Assembly: GCA_003635265.1 (NCBI GenBank)
Contig: PYIZ01000028.1
Span: 1 to 64,000, forward strand
Direction: 5' to 3'
Length of the DNA stretch: 64,000 bases
Origin: Candidatus Poribacteria bacterium
Lineage (GTDB): Bacteria; Poribacteria; WGA-4E; PCPOR2b
Part shown: in pieces, positions 11,909 through 64,000 of the stretch
Position numbering within the stretch: position 1 is the stretch's first letter
Layout of the letters: each line of letters begins with the position of its first letter
The notes under the pieces: generated by a model
Told to the model about the DNA's origin: nothing
The model's input: only the letters and a program-made list of their open reading frames with translations
The model's database searches: none
Position numbers and translations under genes: made by a program

Positions 11909-13207
11909 TTAATCCTCAAAACCCATGAGTTCACGGTATTCTTTCATGAAAAATTCTCCATAATGCGGCGGCACCCCCTGCATATTAGCCATTTTATCAA
12001 AACTGATATTATGTACCTTGACAACATTCCCTTTTGGCTCAAAATATATCAACGACACATCTTCGGGATGGATGGTGCCCTTTCTGATTTCAACACGCGC
12101 CCGGTCAATCATATAATCGCTATGTGTTTCAACGATAAACGCCCGATTACCGTCGCTTGCCAGTGTTGCTAGTAAAGAGGAGAGTTCTGCCTGCACCCTC
12201 GGGTGGAGATGGATTTCAGGTTGTTGTAATAAGGAAATAGGCATCGGTCCTATACGCATAATCCCACTTAGACTTTGGCGAAAAATAGGATATTCCAAAA
12301 CACGTGCCAAGATTGGCAAAATTTGACTGACACCGTAACCAACATCGACAATATTAGAATTAGGCCCCTTCACCTTGACCTTCAGTTGGAATGGGCTGCC
12401 TCTTGAGCCACCAAGGTTAATAACTTCTATGTTCTGAAACAGCCCCGAACGCTGCCCAAAATCAATCAACTGCTCTTTCAAAGTTTCCCACTCCTCTTTT
12501 TCGGTCGCTTTTGTTTCCATAAACCACATCGGCACGTGGCTGCCTTCAGGATCATAATATTGCCTTGTCGGATTATAGACCCGCTCAGGTTGTGAGCGAA
12601 TCGGTGCGGCACTACATACGAATAGATTATCCCTAATATCATCCCATAGGTCTTCAATATTCCTTAAATGATTGAGTAAAGCCTTTTCGTCCTCAGATAC
12701 TCGTTCCCATCTATGAGTAAAATCCGCTGAAAGGTAGTGAAAAGAGTTGGCATCCAAAAACGCAGAGGTCACATCTACCTGATACTGATTCTGTTCTCTA
12801 TCAACGGACACTAAACGTGCACTCATTATATCGCTCGCTCTTAGGACGATCTCGCTATCAGTTAATTTCACATTTATTGAACTGACAACTGGCTCAACAC
12901 CTCCCCGTCTTTCGGCAAATTCAACGGCGTACTCAACATCTCCATGGAAAGTAAATCCTAGCTTAAATATCTTCTCTTTTTTTCTACTGTTTCTGACAAT
13001 CTCCTTAAAGATTCCCATTGAATAGGGCGGTGAATTAAAATCGATTCCTCCATCTATCAGATAATCTGCTAATGTTTGGAAACATGCCAACGCCGTGGTT
13101 TTGCCGGTGCTGTTTTCCCCGACCAAAAACGTCAGGGGGCGAATATTAAACTCTTGTCGTCCAGCAAAACAGCGTACTTCCTCCATTGTAAATTGAGTGA
13201 TGTTCAT
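11909..13207 (-). CDS. OLD-like AAA/ABC ATPase with DUF3696 tail
   Basis: 432 aa. Walker A LVGENSTGKTT (residues 30-37) in a RecF/SMC-type start (ITQFTMEEVRCFAGRQEF... RPLTFLVGEN). A central insert carries no recognised domain. The signature is VDVGYGVSQILPILARVL, Walker B LLQQPEIHLHPRVQAEL, H-loop FIVETHSDYMIDRARVEIRKG, and the C-terminal DUF3696-like piece ends EFFMKEYRELMGFED. QQPE instead of EEPE is usual in this family. Proteins of this class act as sensors in anti-phage pairs (Septu, PARIS, retron accessory genes). Here the pair is a PIN-like nuclease encoded 3 nt downstream, with a membrane protein gene 81 nt upstream. Confidence 0.88.
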   Translation of the reverse strand: MNITQFTMEEVRCFAGRQEFNIRPLTFLVGENSTGKTTALACFQTLADYLIDGGIDFNSPPYSMGIFKEIVRNSRKKEKIFKLGFTFHGDVEYAVEFAERRGGVEPVVSSINVKLTDSEIVLRASDIMSARLVSVDREQNQYQVDVTSAFLDANSFHYLSADFTHRWERVSEDEKALLNHLRNIEDLWDDIRDNLFVCSAAPIRSQPERVYNPTRQYYDPEGSHVPMWFMETKATEKEEWETLKEQLIDFGQRSGLFQNIEVINLGGSRGSPFQLKVKVKGPNSNIVDVGYGVSQILPILARVLEYPIFRQSLSGIMRIGPMPISLLQQPEIHLHPRVQAELSSLLATLASDGNRAFIVETHSDYMIDRARVEIRKGTIHPEDVSLIYFEPKGNVVKVHNISFDKMANMQGVPPHYGEFFMKEYRELMGFED

Positions 13208-13288
13208 CCGGTTACCCCCTGCGTCTCATCTTCCAGATAGCGCGTTCTATAAGTATTCAATAACTTTCTGCTGGATTTGGAGCTATTA

Positions 13289-13954
13289 TTATCTTGAATT
13301 ATCGGCATCAAGCACCGAGTTAATCTCCCTTATTACAACCAACAATTTATGCACAAACTGTTTAATCGGTTCCAAAAAACCCAAAAGATGCAATATCGTC
13401 AGGATTGCGGCTACAATTATGATTAGATAAAGAATTCCCTTAACTAGCCTGCCTACTACTGACGCTTTGATCTTTTGTCGGTTAAAGCCAAGTATTCCAA
13501 TGACAATAAATGGCAGATCCGAAATTGTATCAAGTACCCGCCCTAGGTAAAAGAACGGATTGATTGTTCTGACAAATGCTGATCTACGGTTGGATTCATA
13601 TTCTCCAATGGCTCTATCTATGAGACCCAGTACATTGTTGGGACCTATATCAAATTGATCGAGATTAAAAATATCCTCAATTAGATCAATTTCTGTTTCA
13701 TCGCCTCCAGCTGCTGTAGGTCGTGTCCAAGAGAATGATGGATTTATTTCTGAATTAAGAATGATGGAATGTATTTCGCCCCTGAGTCGATTGATTTCGC
13801 GCCTAGCCTCCTTTGCAGCACTTTCTTCGACTCTGCCACCTCCGAGACCTACCCGGCTATTATTGAAATATCGAATCATGAGGGAACGGAATTCCCTCAG
13901 TTTATTTAACCGTCTTTTGTTCTCCCAAATTAATATTCTGGCGTAATGTCTCAC
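13289..13954 (-). CDS. Two-TM membrane protein next to ATPase/PIN pair
   Basis: 221 aa, family not recognised. A basic helical N-terminal third (ENKRRLNKLREFRSLMIRYFNN), an acidic middle (ETEIDLIEDIFNLDQFD), then two hydrophobic segments (LPFIVIGILGF about 140-155; GILYLIIIVAAILTILHLLGFL about 172-193) and a short amphipathic tail. Starts at GTG 13954 with AAGGAG about 10 nt upstream. Same strand as, and 81 nt upstream of, the OLD-like ATPase, so it may be the first gene of a three-gene module. A membrane effector or sensor role is possible but only inferred from position. Confidence 0.65.
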   Translation of the reverse strand: MRHYARILIWENKRRLNKLREFRSLMIRYFNNSRVGLGGGRVEESAAKEARREINRLRGEIHSIILNSEINPSFSWTRPTAAGGDETEIDLIEDIFNLDQFDIGPNNVLGLIDRAIGEYESNRRSAFVRTINPFFYLGRVLDTISDLPFIVIGILGFNRQKIKASVVGRLVKGILYLIIIVAAILTILHLLGFLEPIKQFVHKLLVVIREINSVLDADNSR

Positions 13955-58337: not shown

Positions 58338-58728
58338 TGGTGTGGCGAAATTATATGCAAGAGATGTTACACGTTTATGGCGAAATTATCACAAATTCAT
58401 AACGTTACTTTTTTGCGATTTTGTCAAAGTTCTGTGAAAATTTCGTAACATCACCTTGCTATAATATGACAAACTGCTAGGGGTGGATTTATACAACGTC
58501 AAAATCAGAAACTTGGTTTCTATTACACCATTTCTTAACATGAACCACACACCGATCTGTCAGCTGCCCGTGAACCGTCACACCAGTGTTCATGACCCCT
58601 TGAATATTTTTCCACTTGATCTAAATCGGAGGGCGTTGTATAATCATTTCAGTAGATACAGCGTGTTATCGTTGCACGCTTCAAGTTGAAAAATTCTTTA
58701 ATCTTTGCAAGCAGAACAGGAAATGGAA
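58338..58728. other. Divergent control region upstream of the GNAT-TGT operon
   Basis: Contains a 12-bp direct repeat TGGCGAAATTAT (58343-58354 and 58378-58389, 35 bp apart), an extended -10-like TTGCTATAAT (about 58459-58468), and the better promoter at 58616-58644. No gene is supported. Confidence 0.5.
58616..58644 (+). promoter_or_regulatory. Predicted sigma-70 promoter of the GNAT-TGT operon
   Basis: TTGATC (58616-58621), a 17-bp spacer and a perfect TATAAT (58639-58644), 85 nt before the ATG at 58729. It reads into three tightly spaced genes. Confidence 0.7.
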
Positions 58729-60204
58729 ATGTCTTCGATTATCATTTCCAATGTTACAGATTTCTCCATCATTGATGCTGTTAAACGCATTGCTGACCAA
58801 CACCGGACTGAACTCGGTTTTCACACCCGTCAGGCTTATATGGATAGCCTCAACAAAGGAGAACTACTGATAGCGAAAAGAGCTGCTGAAGTTGTCGGAT
58901 TCGTACGCTATCATCATAGGCGAGATAACCGAACAACGCTCTACGAAATTGCCGTCACCCCTGATACTCGAGGTAAAGGAGCTGGACGTCGACTGATAGA
59001 GGCTTTGATTACTGACTGTCAGCGTGTGTCTTCACGATGTATCCGGCTATTATGTCCAGTGGAATTGCCTGCGAACCGTTTCTATGAAGCGGTTGGATTT
59101 ATCCGTTCAACTCGTCGCAGTTTGCTCGGGAGAAGTCGTCCACTATATGAGTGGGAACTGCCGGTCCTACCGGATCGAAAAATCACGTTTGTGGCATCAT
59201 TAACATCAGCAGCCTCCGATTTGAATCAATTGATCCAATTGTGGGAAAGAGAAGGACCTAGTGAAAAACCGTTCGATAAGTGCATTATCACGCCGCTATT
59301 TATTGGACCCAAATCTCTTGATTATGTCCGGGACATACATGAACGTTGGGGTATCGATGTCATTTTCGACTCTGGAGGCTTCTTCGTCCAGCAGGGCAGA
59401 ATTTCATACGACGAGTTATTCTCCAAACTCCTTGATTTTTACCTTAAACATGACTGGGCAGAAACATATGTACTTCCCGATTTCGTGCCAACATCAAGGC
59501 AGTCATCTGATGAGGTGACCGAAAGGGTACACGTCACAGCAGCTGAGAGTGTTAGATTCTTGGATAGGCTTCCTACCGACTGGCGTCACCGGGCCCTCGG
59601 TGTTTTACAGGGACATACCCCCGAACATCTTAAATACTGTTTTGACATATACATGGACAATAGTCTACAACGCATCGGCTTTGGGAGTTTCGATACAACG
59701 GGTGTCAATGCAGAAATTAATCTGCTAACTGCTCAAACCGAAAATCGCCTCGTTTTTGTGCGCGATTTGATTCGGCGTGATTTTCTTGATGGGAAAATTA
59801 CGTCTCTGCCGGACTTACATTTGTTCGGCGTTAGTTCTCCAAATATTATAAACCAATTCAAAGGTTACTTAGCAACTAGTTTTGATAGCTCTGGATGGCA
59901 GCGTACCGCGGGATTCGGGAATGTTTATTTACCATTTATGGGACGGAGGAATGTCAGCCATAAGTCAACTGCTTTGACGATTAACAAGGGCATGACCGCA
60001 AAGGAATTTTACGCAGAATGCGAACGTACAGAGCATTCGTGCCCGTTCTGTCAAGACTTTCCAAGACTTCAAAAAGATCGGTTTGTACGAATGTGGCACA
60101 ACGCAATCGTTTTTTGTGATATGATAAAAAAAATAAATCAGGTTGAACAAAGCAAAATTCCAATTCAACTCAGAGAACCTAACGTCCCAATAGATTCCGC
60201 ATAA
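58729..60204 (+). CDS. GNAT acetyltransferase fused to TGT/DpdA-like transglycosylase
   Basis: 491 aa. Residues about 5-140: GNAT fold (acceptor-side RTELGFHTRQAYMDSL; acetyl-CoA loop VTPDTRGKGAGRRLIEAL; NRFYEAVGF). Residues about 150-475: tRNA-guanine-transglycosylase-like barrel with the expected active site: FDSGGF (D214), LPDF (D251), GVLQG (Q294), GFGSFD, LHLFGVSSP, and SFDSSGWQR (D386, nucleophile position). The zinc-site remnant is C431, C438, C441 and H457 (SCPFCQDF... MWHNAIVFCDMI), like C-x-C-x2-C...H in TGT. This suggests base exchange of guanine in DNA or tRNA; genomic DpdA inserts preQ0 into DNA. ATG 58729 has AGGA upstream; TTG 58705 is less likely. The next gene starts within 25 nt. 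Confidence 0.85.
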   Translation: MSSIIISNVTDFSIIDAVKRIADQHRTELGFHTRQAYMDSLNKGELLIAKRAAEVVGFVRYHHRRDNRTTLYEIAVTPDTRGKGAGRRLIEALITDCQRVSSRCIRLLCPVELPANRFYEAVGFIRSTRRSLLGRSRPLYEWELPVLPDRKITFVASLTSAASDLNQLIQLWEREGPSEKPFDKCIITPLFIGPKSLDYVRDIHERWGIDVIFDSGGFFVQQGRISYDELFSKLLDFYLKHDWAETYVLPDFVPTSRQSSDEVTERVHVTAAESVRFLDRLPTDWRHRALGVLQGHTPEHLKYCFDIYMDNSLQRIGFGSFDTTGVNAEINLLTAQTENRLVFVRDLIRRDFLDGKITSLPDLHLFGVSSPNIINQFKGYLATSFDSSGWQRTAGFGNVYLPFMGRRNVSHKSTALTINKGMTAKEFYAECERTEHSCPFCQDFPRLQKDRFVRMWHNAIVFCDMIKKINQVEQSKIPIQLREPNVPIDSA

Positions 60205-60227
60205 CATATGTTGATAGAAAATTGACG

Positions 60228-61070
60228 ATGAAATCACATGTCCATGTTTTCCATACAAAGCATGACTTCAATCCCAAATTAGCCTGGGCAGCGTTTCAAC
60301 TATTAGCCGAGGTTGATTCTGATGGCATTTCGGCCACCAACTTGCACAACGTCGCAAAAGCAGTAGGATCGCCCTTAACTCAACGTTCTAATTTAAGTAA
60401 GCTGCTTGGCTCTATGCAGGACGTTGGATTAATTGAAAAAACGCAAGATGGGGTTGTGCTTTCCGAGGGAGGACGCGCCCTCGTAAAAGGAATTGGAGGC
60501 TATGAGATAAGCTTTCGGGCAGCGGTTCATTGCCTTTACGCTTGGAAATGGATTTGGGAACAAAATCCTCGGGTTGCTTCACCATCATGGAGCTACCGTC
60601 AGGTGTTAAGACAAATATTAGATTCCGGATCTGCAGGTATTGACCCGGATGAAATTGTGTTGCAGCTAGTTTTCGCCGCTGAAGAACAATTCAAAGCTGT
60701 GAAAGTTTCCTTTAGCAGATCAAGCGTGAGTGGTGTGACAATGTGGCTTGAATCTCAGGCGTTGCCTCTTGTTCAAAAAGAGGGACATCGCATCCGGTGT
60801 CAGAATGCTTCAACTCCTATGGTCGACTCTATGCGCCTTCATTTAGCTGCACTTTGCGGTCTTAATAGTGGTGAGGTCGTGTTGGATGATAAGAATATGC
60901 AGTTGCTGGCGGAGTCCGTTCTAATCCGGTCAGACGAACTAGTGAGTTCAATAGAAGATTTTATGCACGATAGTGAGGAATTTTTGTTGATATCAACGAC
61001 ACCAAATCGCGTAATCTTCAAAGACACGAAAGATCCATTCATTGAATGGATAGTCAAATCTGCTGTATGA
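60228..61070 (+). CDS. Winged-helix protein, DpdG-like by position
   Basis: About 280 aa. An N-terminal winged-helix domain (LAWAAFQLLAEVDSDGISATNLHNVAKAVG, NLSKLLGSMQDVGLIEKTQDGVVLSEGGRAL), a helical middle with SFRAAVHCLYAWKWIWEQNP and WSYRQVLRQILDSGSAGIDPDEIVLQL, and a C-terminal part ending DPFIEWIVKSAV. It may bind DNA or regulate the ATPase. The order TGT-like / winged helix / large ATPase recalls the dpdG-dpdH pair of 7-deazaguanine DNA systems, but identity is inferred from memory and order, not from a strong motif. The start is taken as ATG 60228 (TTG 60222 possible); no clear SD, so translation may be coupled to the gene 23 nt upstream. Confidence 0.8.
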   Translation: MKSHVHVFHTKHDFNPKLAWAAFQLLAEVDSDGISATNLHNVAKAVGSPLTQRSNLSKLLGSMQDVGLIEKTQDGVVLSEGGRALVKGIGGYEISFRAAVHCLYAWKWIWEQNPRVASPSWSYRQVLRQILDSGSAGIDPDEIVLQLVFAAEEQFKAVKVSFSRSSVSGVTMWLESQALPLVQKEGHRIRCQNASTPMVDSMRLHLAALCGLNSGEVVLDDKNMQLLAESVLIRSDELVSSIEDFMHDSEEFLLISTTPNRVIFKDTKDPFIEWIVKSAV

Positions 61071-61105: not shown

Positions 61106-64000
61106 ATGGACGATAGCCACAAAGAACGCTTGCAACTGTTACCTATAGCAGATACTATTGGTGGTACGGCTGCACGGGAAAATCCAAGAAGGACACTTGA
61201 CCATTATAACCATCTTGCCAACCAACTTTGGCTGTCATCAAAAGTTAGTGATGTCGCAGATGGTGTATTTTTAAGAGTGCAGCAAGGATACACCGCGTGG
61301 GGAAGTCTAAGTGGGCCGTATGGATTCGGCAAAACAGCATCTGCAATTGCTTTATGGGCACATGCGAAAGATAGTGAGTTTTTAGCAATCCCCCCTTTAT
61401 CGTGTACCAGTTTTGATGAATTAGCTTCTGGAATTGCCGCGCTTGCTGGCGAGCAAAATCCAAAAATTAAAAAACAGATTAATAAACTATTTGAGGATGT
61501 TTTCACAAAAGGGCTAAATCCGATGGTGCAGGAAGATGCCAAACGTTACTCTGTGCCTTCCCGTAGAGTTCGTCAAATCTATCAAGATAAGTTTTCTGCC
61601 GGCCAGTTCACATTAGACAGTCAGTCCCGCCGAACCGTTGAGTTTCTATCAAAACTTGGAGCACTTGCAGCGAAAGATTCAAAGGGGTTAGTGATTATCC
61701 TTGATGAACTTCAGCAGTTGCTCGGCCCGCTTGATGCCCGTACTATTGTCCAATTCCGTGAATTTGTCTGGGGAATGCGTACGGAGCGTTCGCCCTGTGG
61801 TATTATTCTTGCCTTGGACTCACTTCTCGAGGCAAAGCTAGCGCGTTGGGCGGCTGACATCCTTCACAGAATTCGTGAAAATGGTCCCTCGCTACAACTG
61901 ACTGATATCTATACCCGCGAATTCCCGGCGTGGCTATGGGATCAGTTAGTCAATGATAGTAGGAAAAGTGGACTAATCTATCAATCGGAGGCATTGTCGG
62001 AGAATGTCCTTCTATCTCTCGGTCAACTTGTCGAAAGGCCAGACCTTGCTAATGGTCCAAGGACCGTTGTAGATGTCTTCACTCGAGCAGTAACTTATCA
62101 TCAAGAAACAGGTTCAAGTTATGATATACCTAATCTCGTTAGCGATGTTCATCAAGGTCAATTTCGTTACTTTGGGGAAGGTGCAACAATACAAAGTGTC
62201 CTAACCCACATTCTCTCAGACGAGTGGATTTCTCAGGATGAGGAGCGCAAAACATTAGTAACAACACTTGCAGCTTTCCCACAGGGCTGTTCCCAAGAAA
62301 TGCTTCAATGCTACCTCCCTGATAAAAAGCAACTGAAAAAAACAAGATCAGAGTTGTTTGCTCCATTACTTGTTGAACTTTCTGAAGGTTTAGCCTTAGA
62401 ACGATTGCAGCAGGTTCGTCGAATTAATACCAATTGGGAGCAGATTCTGTCGCGCTGTTGGGAAACGTTGCCGGCTCTTGACGCTTTAGCTGCACAGGCC
62501 CCAAGTATGATTCTTCGGACCCTTATCCCAAAACTCTTTCCCAAAGGAACTCCTGCTAAACCTGACTGGGAGCGGCTTTCTGATGATTCAAATGCTATAT
62601 TGACAGGTTGGTATATACTCCGCGGAACTTTTGATGATAACTACCCCCAAAGAGAAATTGCTCTATGCGTATCGGACAAAGAACCGGAGTCGTGGCCATG
62701 GGACGTAGATGCTTGCATTGCGCTCGTGTGTGATAGTAGTGTAGATCCTGATGTCACCCCCAGAGCAGAATTACTAGACAAAGATGACGGCTGCTTCATT
62801 TTGATGCGGTTACCTATATTAAGGCCATTGGAAGATCGAATTCCCGCCGAGTTACAGCGCCATGGGAAACATATCCAGCCGGAGCCATTCCGGCCAGCAA
62901 CTATTTTGGCTGCTTTGCATGACCTTGAAGCATTTTTAGGGGACCAGATTGACAATTCTGACGATGCCGATGTGCTGACCTATCCGGAGGAACAAGCTGA
63001 AGTAAAACAGGTAACGGCGTTCGTTAACATTACGGTAGATTTTGTTCTCCGAGAACTTCTGGCAGGAACGGTAGATGTAGGAATAAGCACGCCAATCTCC
63101 CTTCGGGGACCGGAATTATTACGTGCCTTATTTACACAAGCATGTCGGCGTCGCTTTCCAGAATACCAGACACTAACAAGAACAGAAAAATGGCAGGAAA
63201 TTCTATCAAACTACCGAGAAGGGGTGAGTTCAGATTGGTTGAATCCTGCACAACGCCAAGGTCTTGAAGATATCATCACGCCCAAGGTAGAGATGTACGA
63301 AACTTTGTTCGGTCAAAAGAGTACCGCAGCAGGTGATAGCTTCATCAAAAAACTAGGGACATTTGTCGAAATAAAAAAAGATTCTGAATCATTTGCACTT
63401 CGTTTGGCAATGCATCCGGCAGAAAATACTCTCATTGATTATCTTAAGAAATTTGCTGCCAATCAATTTATACCTCTTAATGCCACTGTAGAGTTCTTAC
63501 GACATCACGGGTATATACATACAGAAACGGAAGAAATTGTAAAAATCCTTGTTGCACGAGAATGTCTTACAAAGGATCCTAACGGAAATATTCGATTCAT
63601 TCCAAGTCCTGAAATTGAACGTGGTCGTTTGCTACAACAAATTGCTGAAATGGATGATCAGCTCTGCCGCCTTGGGATAACCGATGATACTAATTTGATA
63701 AGTCAAAACACCTCCACAACCAACTTACAAAAACACCTCCAGCAGCAGCAAGCGCGTTTAGAATCTTTTGCTAAGGAAGAAATTTCAAATTTGGAGAGTA
63801 GTATTACCTCCCTTCAAGAATTAATAGGGACCGTCAGTGTTCCCGCTATCTCCACTGAGTGGCTAGATTCAGATTTAAGTAGGCACTTAACAGGTATAGC
63901 AATTAAACTCAAGGATACACAAAAGAATCTGTTGAGAACCCTGCGCCGTGAGTTGAAAGGCTTTGAAGAGGAGCTTGATACCGCTTCTAGTCTTTCAGGA
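61106..64000 (+). CDS. Large P-loop ATPase, DpdH/PglY-like, truncated by window edge
   Basis: 965 codons open from ATG 61106 (GAGAGAA upstream) to the end of the window without a stop. Walker A SLSGPYGFGKTASAIALW (residues 70-77), Walker B GLVIILDELQQLLGPL (about 195-208), then IVQFREFVWGMRTERSPCGIILALDSLL as a sensor-like segment. The middle is long and mixed; near the visible end is a coiled-coil (LQKHLQQQQARLESFAKEEISNLESSI... LKDTQKNLLRTLRRELKGFEEELD). The architecture fits the very large ATPases of phage-defence systems (DpdH; BrxC/PglY). Adjacent to the winged-helix gene (35 nt) and probably in the same operon. It likely powers restriction or modification by partners beyond the window. 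Confidence 0.85.
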   Translation, partial: MDDSHKERLQLLPIADTIGGTAARENPRRTLDHYNHLANQLWLSSKVSDVADGVFLRVQQGYTAWGSLSGPYGFGKTASAIALWAHAKDSEFLAIPPLSCTSFDELASGIAALAGEQNPKIKKQINKLFEDVFTKGLNPMVQEDAKRYSVPSRRVRQIYQDKFSAGQFTLDSQSRRTVEFLSKLGALAAKDSKGLVIILDELQQLLGPLDARTIVQFREFVWGMRTERSPCGIILALDSLLEAKLARWAADILHRIRENGPSLQLTDIYTREFPAWLWDQLVNDSRKSGLIYQSEALSENVLLSLGQLVERPDLANGPRTVVDVFTRAVTYHQETGSSYDIPNLVSDVHQGQFRYFGEGATIQSVLTHILSDEWISQDEERKTLVTTLAAFPQGCSQEMLQCYLPDKKQLKKTRSELFAPLLVELSEGLALERLQQVRRINTNWEQILSRCWETLPALDALAAQAPSMILRTLIPKLFPKGTPAKPDWERLSDDSNAILTGWYILRGTFDDNYPQREIALCVSDKEPESWPWDVDACIALVCDSSVDPDVTPRAELLDKDDGCFILMRLPILRPLEDRIPAELQRHGKHIQPEPFRPATILAALHDLEAFLGDQIDNSDDADVLTYPEEQAEVKQVTAFVNITVDFVLRELLAGTVDVGISTPISLRGPELLRALFTQACRRRFPEYQTLTRTEKWQEILSNYREGVSSDWLNPAQRQGLEDIITPKVEMYETLFGQKSTAAGDSFIKKLGTFVEIKKDSESFALRLAMHPAENTLIDYLKKFAANQFIPLNATVEFLRHHGYIHTETEEIVKILVARECLTKDPNGNIRFIPSPEIERGRLLQQIAEMDDQLCRLGITDDTNLISQNTSTTNLQKHLQQQQARLESFAKEEISNLESSITSLQELIGTVSVPAISTEWLDSDLSRHLTGIAIKLKDTQKNLLRTLRRELKGFEEELDTASSLSG

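Follow-up and report, generated by a model that had tools for sequence, protein, structure and literature searches.

The window analysed here covers positions 1–64,000 of the 80,586-base contig C28 in a Candidatus Poribacteria draft genome (label G000). Near its end, positions 58729–60204 of the forward strand hold one uninterrupted frame, stopping at 60204, for a 491-amino-acid (aa) protein in which a GNAT acetyltransferase domain is joined to a domain of the tRNA-guanine transglycosylase (TGT)/DpdA type. TTG 58705 is a possible alternative start (499-aa reading); because a Shine–Dalgarno-like AGGAA, read from the sequence at 58718–58722 (+), sits 6 nucleotides (nt) ahead of ATG 58729, the ATG is the likely start, and residues are numbered from it. 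The GNAT domain covers approximately residues 1–148 (58729–59172, +; boundary set by us) and matches PF00583 over residues 43–132 of the 499-aa reading (E = 2.3e-14, 54.1 bits against a cut-off of 20.7). The transglycosylase domain, approximately residues 149–491 (59173–60201, +), was assigned by NF041059, hhalign and a PDB profile search; it matches NF041059 DpdA (5e-6, 25.6 bits), the PADLOC DpdA model (5.7e-5) and a PHROG queuine tRNA-ribosyltransferase (8e-5). An initial annotation, made from the sequence alone, had proposed a single frame with both domains, an RGKGAG acetyl-CoA loop and the motifs FDSGGF, PDF, LQG and FDSSGW. The frame and the profile matches, strong for the GNAT half and weak for the DpdA models, agree with this, and all the motifs are present; the gene is a real fusion of a GNAT to a TGT/DpdA-like transglycosylase. 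Both halves are under purifying selection among four close loci (nonsynonymous divergence, dN, 0.05–0.14; synonymous divergence, dS, 0.48–1.76; dN/dS well below 1).

A sequencing error joining two genes, which the initial annotation had named as a way for its proposal to fail, is ruled out by recurrence of the fusion in 12 of 84 Poribacteria genomes, the window's included, and on a plasmid of the cyanobacterium Oscillatoria nigro-viridis PCC 7112 (30% identity). A three-row profile at E ≤ 1e-5 matched 16 of the 84 genomes; the four that hold no clear copy gave weak matches or other TGT-like or GNAT proteins. Four close copies form group A, in which the other three are 78–81% identical to the window's, and eight distant copies form group B (32–35% identity in the seven that were aligned), one of them split over two contigs and one lacking its start at a contig end. 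The contigs L003 and L004, in genomes G080 and G064, are each counted once. A Haloplanus plasmid has the TGT as a gene by itself, with a GNAT gene 8 kb downstream in the same cluster. Counts beyond Poribacteria refer to plasmids only (2 of 72,556 records). A phage origin was considered and set aside: viral contigs held no relative, and 50,697 phage records yielded one phage (two records) that matched weakly and locally. At the other end of the window, an open reading frame (ORF) on the minus strand at the contig start (16–822) resembles, by eye, an IS5-type transposase.

Conservation of the active site was examined in alignment A2, which has 13 rows including the window's own; the copy in G049, which is broken into two pieces on separate contigs, and the weakly matching proteins of G027, G001, G006 and G008 were left out. 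Eight residues are invariant in 13/13 rows: D214, D251, D386, H436, C438, C441, H457 and N458. D214 (FDSGGF; codon 59368–59370, +) aligns to CDSGGF of a DpdA-like protein described below, and D386 (FDSSGW; codon 59884–59886, +) aligns to SFDYVGW of the same protein and to FDC of the host's tRNA TGT; we take these residues to be equivalent to the general base and the nucleophile of TGT, respectively. With D251 of the PDF motif equally invariant, the active site looks intact, as first proposed. The zinc site had been given as Cys3-His, and here the proposal did not hold: its first Cys, C431, is Lys in 9 of the 13 rows, and since H436, C438, C441 and H457 are invariant, the site is better written HxCxxC...H (60034–60099, +). 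One ligand is His in the fusion where the DpdA-like protein and the host TGT have Cys. The two catalytic Asp and the zinc ligands of the TGT superfamily are both present in the fusion. In the GNAT half, R81 and G86 are kept in all 11 rows that cover them, Y119 in 12 of 12 and N116 in every row covering it; the middle Gly of the acetyl-CoA loop, G84, is kept in only 4 of 11. Separately, Q294 of the LQG motif (59608–59610) is Gln in the window's group and in Haloplanus and His in eight rows, namely seven Poribacteria with loci of BREX-Related Capture (BRC) type and Oscillatoria, a split that possibly reflects a difference in base recognition.

By profile, the TGT half resembles the DpdA-like protein more closely than it does the tRNA TGT of the host: hhalign returned a probability of 98.8 (E = 1.1e-16) for the former and 48.5 for the latter. 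The comparison protein is so called for its PADLOC DpdA match (2e-5) and a neighbouring DruE3/DpdJ-like helicase, and it also matches Pfam TGT (6.1e-29). In a PDB profile search the best match of the fusion was the DNA-guanine transglycosylase 7ui4 (E = 0.0015 over 53 columns), with tRNA TGTs at E 0.32–0.99, and PF01702, the tRNA-guanine transglycosylase family, did not match the fusion at E ≤ 1. Because the host has a separate TGT (G000:C26, PF01702 5.4e-168), the fusion is not the cell's queuosine enzyme. The host also matches QueC (1.5e-76), so deazaguanine precursors are probably at hand; QueC is found in 81 of the 84 genomes (best E ≤ 1e-40), and as nearly all Poribacteria have it, its co-occurrence with the fusion is permissive rather than specific. 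A second PF01702 match in the host, at G000:C10:307660–308508 (2.0e-16), lies within a 645-aa frame, and similar frames of about 615–680 aa match Pfam TGT in several other genomes of the phylum. In G027, a 382-aa TGT-like gene (locus L036, G027:C1:72001–92000; 12266–13414 of the locus, minus strand) adjoins a DNA polymerase III alpha gene, and a second QueC lies 14 kb from it (G027:C1:99042–99683); the region has the appearance of a prophage or element carrying a 7-deazaguanine DNA modification of its own.

The fusion is the first gene of a six-gene operon that extends past the window's end, in the order GNAT–TGT, 282-aa protein, ATPase, DruF, DruL and DruE, all on the forward strand. Gene 2 (60222–61070) encodes a 282-aa protein whose N terminus resembles, by eye, a winged helix-turn-helix, with no Pfam family over its cut-off. 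Gene 3 encodes a 1235-aa AAA-type ATPase (61106–64000 in the window, stop at 64813) whose C-terminal half matches coiled-coil proteins. DruF (contig 64840–66582) is best matched by the PADLOC DruF2/F4 models (5.1e-24; best stretch, residues 8–202), DruL (66584–67915) by DruL4 (4.4e-15) and DruE (67908–73664) by DruE4 over nearly its full length (E = 0); DruE also matches DpdJ (6.6e-16). The window's operon therefore holds DruE, DruF and DruL in one locus, the combination that marks Druantia type IV. With the start codons that we chose, the gaps are 17, 35, 26, 1 and −8 nt. All four group-A loci carry the six genes, matched by BLAST, in identical order and strand; from gene 2 onward their gaps are −29 to 35 nt (4/4), and 156–241 nt follow gene 1 in the other three. 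The full-length DruF form of this operon occurs in exactly the four of 84 genomes that have a group-A fusion. Relatives of all six genes are also present on the Oscillatoria plasmid, gene 2 only weakly by BLAST (5.7e-4).

The two genes that follow the fusion were compared with known families. The 282-aa protein aligns by hhalign with the second genes of six BRC-type Poribacteria loci, Haloplanus and Oscillatoria (probability 93.7, E = 1.9e-7, 118 columns); a profile of 12 proteins of this type found no solved relative (best E 0.24). The ATPases of the window's operon, Haloplanus and Oscillatoria are homologous by BLAST (2e-51 and 1.4e-38). PF10923 (BrxC_BrxD) is over its cut-off in the Haloplanus ATPase (27.3 bits), below it in Oscillatoria and absent in the window protein, and the PDB matches of the ATPase profile are coiled-coil or helical-bundle proteins. 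Identification of the ATPase as SspC was rejected: the protein as cut by the window matched at 6.1e-5, and the full-length protein was not listed at E ≤ 1. Against ATPase genes that lie beside DUF4007, SspC-like by position only, the probability was 67 over 78 columns.

The first three genes also occur with other partners. In the group-B loci and on the Haloplanus plasmid, relatives of the trio are followed by a small AAA-like protein and by PglZ-like and HerA-like proteins, a set present in all six group-B loci that reach far enough. PADLOC detects PglZ in Haloplanus (3.6e-6) and in L028 (0.0016; the one locus scanned among the six of group B), and HerA is recognized in Haloplanus by PF01935 (4.2e-12). 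In the 12 judgeable loci (four group-A, six group-B, Oscillatoria and Haloplanus), the trio is always accompanied either by PglZ/HerA or by DruF/L/E. Judging from this gene content, the trio acts as a module around which the partner set changes. An ATPase profile matched 14 of the 84 genomes, 12 with the fusion and two (G015 and G002) without a TGT match; in these two the ATPase is cut at a contig end or lies on a 3.6-kb contig, and we did not count them as exceptions. Both plasmid records with the ATPase also have the TGT. Alignment A4 omits L032, and alignment A9 omits L029, L032, L033, whose frame is interrupted by a stop codon, and G049. In the phylogeny (a TGT tree built without L032 and with two outgroups, and an ATPase tree built without L032, L033 and G049), long branches leave the proteins of Oscillatoria and Haloplanus without a firm place, and the pairing with Druantia may have arisen once or more than once. 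On the Haloplanus plasmid, queC, queE and queD (PF06508, a radical SAM protein annotated QueE, and PF01242) lie one small gene from the TGT on the other strand, and there the supply of preQ0 seems to be part of the system. Because this TGT lies near que genes and a GNAT is in the same cluster, both a 7-deazaguanine substrate and joint action of TGT and GNAT gain support.

Eight further Druantia IV-like loci are found in Poribacteria (L059, L063, L064, L065, L066, L067, L068 and L069). Their DruF proteins have 655–669 aa and are matched over about the first 200 residues; DruL- and DruE-like genes are present in seven, and the eighth contig ends too early. In seven of the eight, DruF and DruL are separated by one or two genes, DruC-like by PADLOC in both loci scanned (L059 and L064), a position left empty in the TGT-linked operons. 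Seven of the genomes gave no TGT profile match, and in the eighth the TGT lies on a different contig; G052 carries both DruF forms. The idea that a methylase takes the place of the TGT here was set aside, as the motif occurs in four of the eight loci and Pfam support is too thin for the claim: a scan of 10 selected genes from six loci (L059, L064, L065, L066, L068 and L069) returned an Eco57I-type methylase in L059, whose near twin L063 lay outside the scan, and, in L066, an N6_N4_Mtase that is 8 kb away from DruF; the SPPY motif of L064 turned out to belong to a GNAT-like protein. GNAT-like genes of 326–329 aa precede DruF by 127–393 nt in three loci (L064, L068 and L069); since L064 and L069 have neighbours alike in size and order, we read these genes as candidate bystanders. 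A separate Dpd-like locus, L037 (G001:C5:5001–20977), mixes Dpd with Druantia III features: its products are a DpdA-like protein of 393 aa, a helicase of 1356 aa that matches both DruE3 and DpdJ, a PLD-type protein with a DrmC match and, by eye, a probable DNA methylase.

With moderate confidence, we propose that the operon couples a transferable 7-deazaguanine modification module to a Druantia type IV restriction module. The writer would consist of the GNAT–TGT fusion as its catalytic part, the 282-aa protein and the probably BrxC-related ATPase. The TGT domain would replace guanine with a 7-deazaguanine supplied by the host queuosine pathway; like DpdA it would most likely work on DNA, steered to its target by the 282-aa protein and the ATPase. 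The GNAT would then acylate either the new base or a partner, and thanks to the mark the Druantia proteins would leave host DNA alone and turn on phage DNA that lacks it. The domain make-up, the conserved catalytic residues, the operon and its conserved linkage are observed directly, and to deduce base exchange from the TGT signature is well founded. The proposal draws on the invariant active-site residues, 7ui4 as the best match among solved structures, the DpdA-like profile match, the host's separate TGT and QueC, the conserved six-gene order, the DruF form confined to the four group-A genomes, the constancy of the trio, the que genes of Haloplanus and the low dN/dS in both halves. DNA is the likely target, a 7-deazaguanine substrate and self-marking are inferred, and acylation of the base is guesswork backed by the conserved GNAT residues. 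A more specific version, in which an acylated 7-deazaguanine hypermodification is the Druantia self mark, written by the GNAT–TGT and two helpers as a module able to combine with two or more restriction modules unrelated to each other (PglZ/HerA and DruF/L/E), strikes us as rather unlikely.

Several observations weigh against this proposal. On the enzyme, the 25.6 bits to NF041059 fall far short of the curated DpdA equivalog cut-off of 200, and AlphaFold models built with three rows were poor (mean predicted local distance difference test score 49 for the fusion and 38 for the 282-aa protein). No que genes are among the neighbouring ORFs or features seen at the window locus or in Oscillatoria, and DpdB and DpdC are absent among the PADLOC matches listed for the six proteins (25 of 31 for DruE). 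On the helpers, the link of the ATPase to BrxC runs through the Haloplanus homologue, and the 282-aa protein, for which the position in BRC had suggested DUF4007/SspB, has no PF13182 match (profile probability 0.6). On the coupling, the pairing of TGT with Druantia has been seen in two phyla only, no TGT occurs among ORFs of at least 120 aa in any of the eight other Druantia loci, and DruF–helicase clusters without TGT lie on Calothrix and Deinococcus plasmids; because Druantia IV-like loci occur without the TGT, Druantia needs no such mark as a rule. In G015, the genes next to the ATPase (273 and 260 aa) are neither Druantia nor HerA by Pfam, possibly a third partner setting for it. In Oscillatoria, the two halves of the locus converge from opposite strands and are separated by two further genes. 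Last, synonymous divergence between L003 and L004 is 0.41–0.65 in the first three genes and 1.29–1.83 in DruF and DruL, as if the operon halves recombined separately; other pairs are less clear or lack this contrast, the window's pairs are all high, and the contrast, which we count as weakening the proposal, is compatible both with a module and with two neighbouring systems.

Three other explanations draw on the same evidence. The locus could hold two neighbouring defence systems, a BRC-like TGT module and Druantia type IV, that are functionally uncoupled. The occurrence of each without the other, the unequal L003/L004 divergence and the convergent Oscillatoria arrangement fit this; nevertheless, we think it improbable, as strand, order and the short gaps after gene 2 are kept in all four close loci, the trio is never without one of two partner sets in the judgeable loci, the pairing recurs in two phyla, and the TGT-linked loci have their own DruF form with nothing between DruF and DruL. 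We give slightly less weight to a translation-linked defence in which tRNA or phage RNA, rather than DNA, is the substrate of the TGT part and the GNAT acylates the modified tRNA base. Most TGT-fold enzymes act on tRNA, and the PHROG match, the tRNA TGTs in the PDB profile search and Foldseek on the weak fusion model, which returned GNATs and, ranked second, a Thermotoga tRNA TGT (2ash, E = 6.7e-5; a hint only), point in that direction; the failure of PF01702 to match, the lower hhalign probability for the host's tRNA TGT than for the DpdA-like protein, and the linkage to a DruE helicase and a probably BrxC-related ATPase, which belong to DNA-directed systems, argue against it. The alternative that we regard as most open to belief, while still short of probable, concerns the GNAT half, which may leave the base alone and either acetylate a partner or phage protein or, its catalysis lost, serve as a binding domain. 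GNATs act on many substrates (PMC12839542), and the acetyl-CoA loop is imperfect, with G84 replaced in 7 of 11 rows. Set against this are R81, G86, N116 and Y119, kept in all covering rows, a dN/dS about as low in the GNAT half as in the TGT half, and the separate GNAT in the Haloplanus cluster.

If a coupled modification module is indeed what the operon encodes, its value lies partly in Druantia itself. The portions of the literature searched gave no account of how Druantia type IV distinguishes phage from host DNA, and a base-modification module in the same operon would make that question of self and non-self testable. The operon would also point to an acylated 7-deazaguanine base, of which no report was found in the same portions of the literature. 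The primary amine of dPreQ1, which has been measured in viral DNA (PMC6884629), is a group that a GNAT could acylate. A pairing of TGT with Druantia was likewise not found in the open-licence literature (subscription papers and supplements lay outside the search).

Among the closest known systems is BRC (PMC12839542, Nucleic Acids Res., January 2026). The initial annotation knew of no described fusion of this kind, a statement overtaken by that paper, in which TGT and GNAT occur in a subset of systems, ‘occasionally fused’, and marking of host DNA is proposed; the TGT–GNAT fusion itself is thus already in print, and the composite TGT–Druantia operon is the setting that we did not find described. 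As in BRC, a TGT and a GNAT share one cluster with an ATPase, here possibly of BrxC type, and a DNA-binding protein, here a putative one, and the group-B and Haloplanus loci resemble BRC in composition. Unlike BRC, in which HerA/FtsK is found in all taxa together with PglZ, the window's operon has DruF, DruL and DruE; neither HerA nor PglZ is among the PADLOC or Pfam matches listed for it, and both are in the Haloplanus relative. The words ‘Druantia’, ‘DruE’ and ‘Poribacteria’ do not occur in the main text of PMC12839542 (supplements lay outside the check).

The second half of the operon shares DruE, DruF and DruL homologues with Druantia type IV, described as DruE and DruF with DruL (PMC8565338), and differs in that three further genes stand ahead of them, the matches of DruF and DruL are partial, and nothing lies between these two. 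DruE of Druantia III is a helicase–nuclease (PMC13192584), and an inactivated nuclease has been predicted at the DruE end in types I and II (PMC12458937, preprint). With Dpd, the operon has in common the TGT signature, the catalytic Asp residues and a YprA-family helicase; unlike Dpd, its GNAT is fused, its score lies far below the DpdA equivalog, and DpdB, DpdC and preQ0 genes were not seen in the locus. BRIGADE (PMC12458937), reported from halophilic archaea only, similarly joins Dpd-like 7-deazaguanine genes to a YprA helicase from the Druantia/ARMADA side, usually with two such helicases and a PLD or PD-(D/E)xK nuclease, whereas DruE is the single YprA helicase of the window's operon, in which que genes were not seen; ‘GNAT’, ‘TGT’ and ‘DruF’ do not occur in the main text of that preprint. 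In Ssp systems, sulfur is placed in the DNA backbone (PMC8092258), as opposed to the TGT here, and the 282-aa protein is not detectably SspB/DUF4007. DUF4007 (SspB-type) genes are over the Pfam cut-off in 46 of the 84 Poribacteria genomes, including G000:C47:43437–44321, and adjoin large ATPase-like genes, by eye, in some of six inspected; phosphorothioate-type systems may be common in the phylum. The likeness to Ssp is one of architecture, in that SspABCD is one DNA-modification module served by interchangeable restriction modules, SspE or SspFGH (PMC8092258); if our proposal is correct, 7-deazaguanine marks would be a movable module of this sort, common to Dpd, BRC and Druantia.

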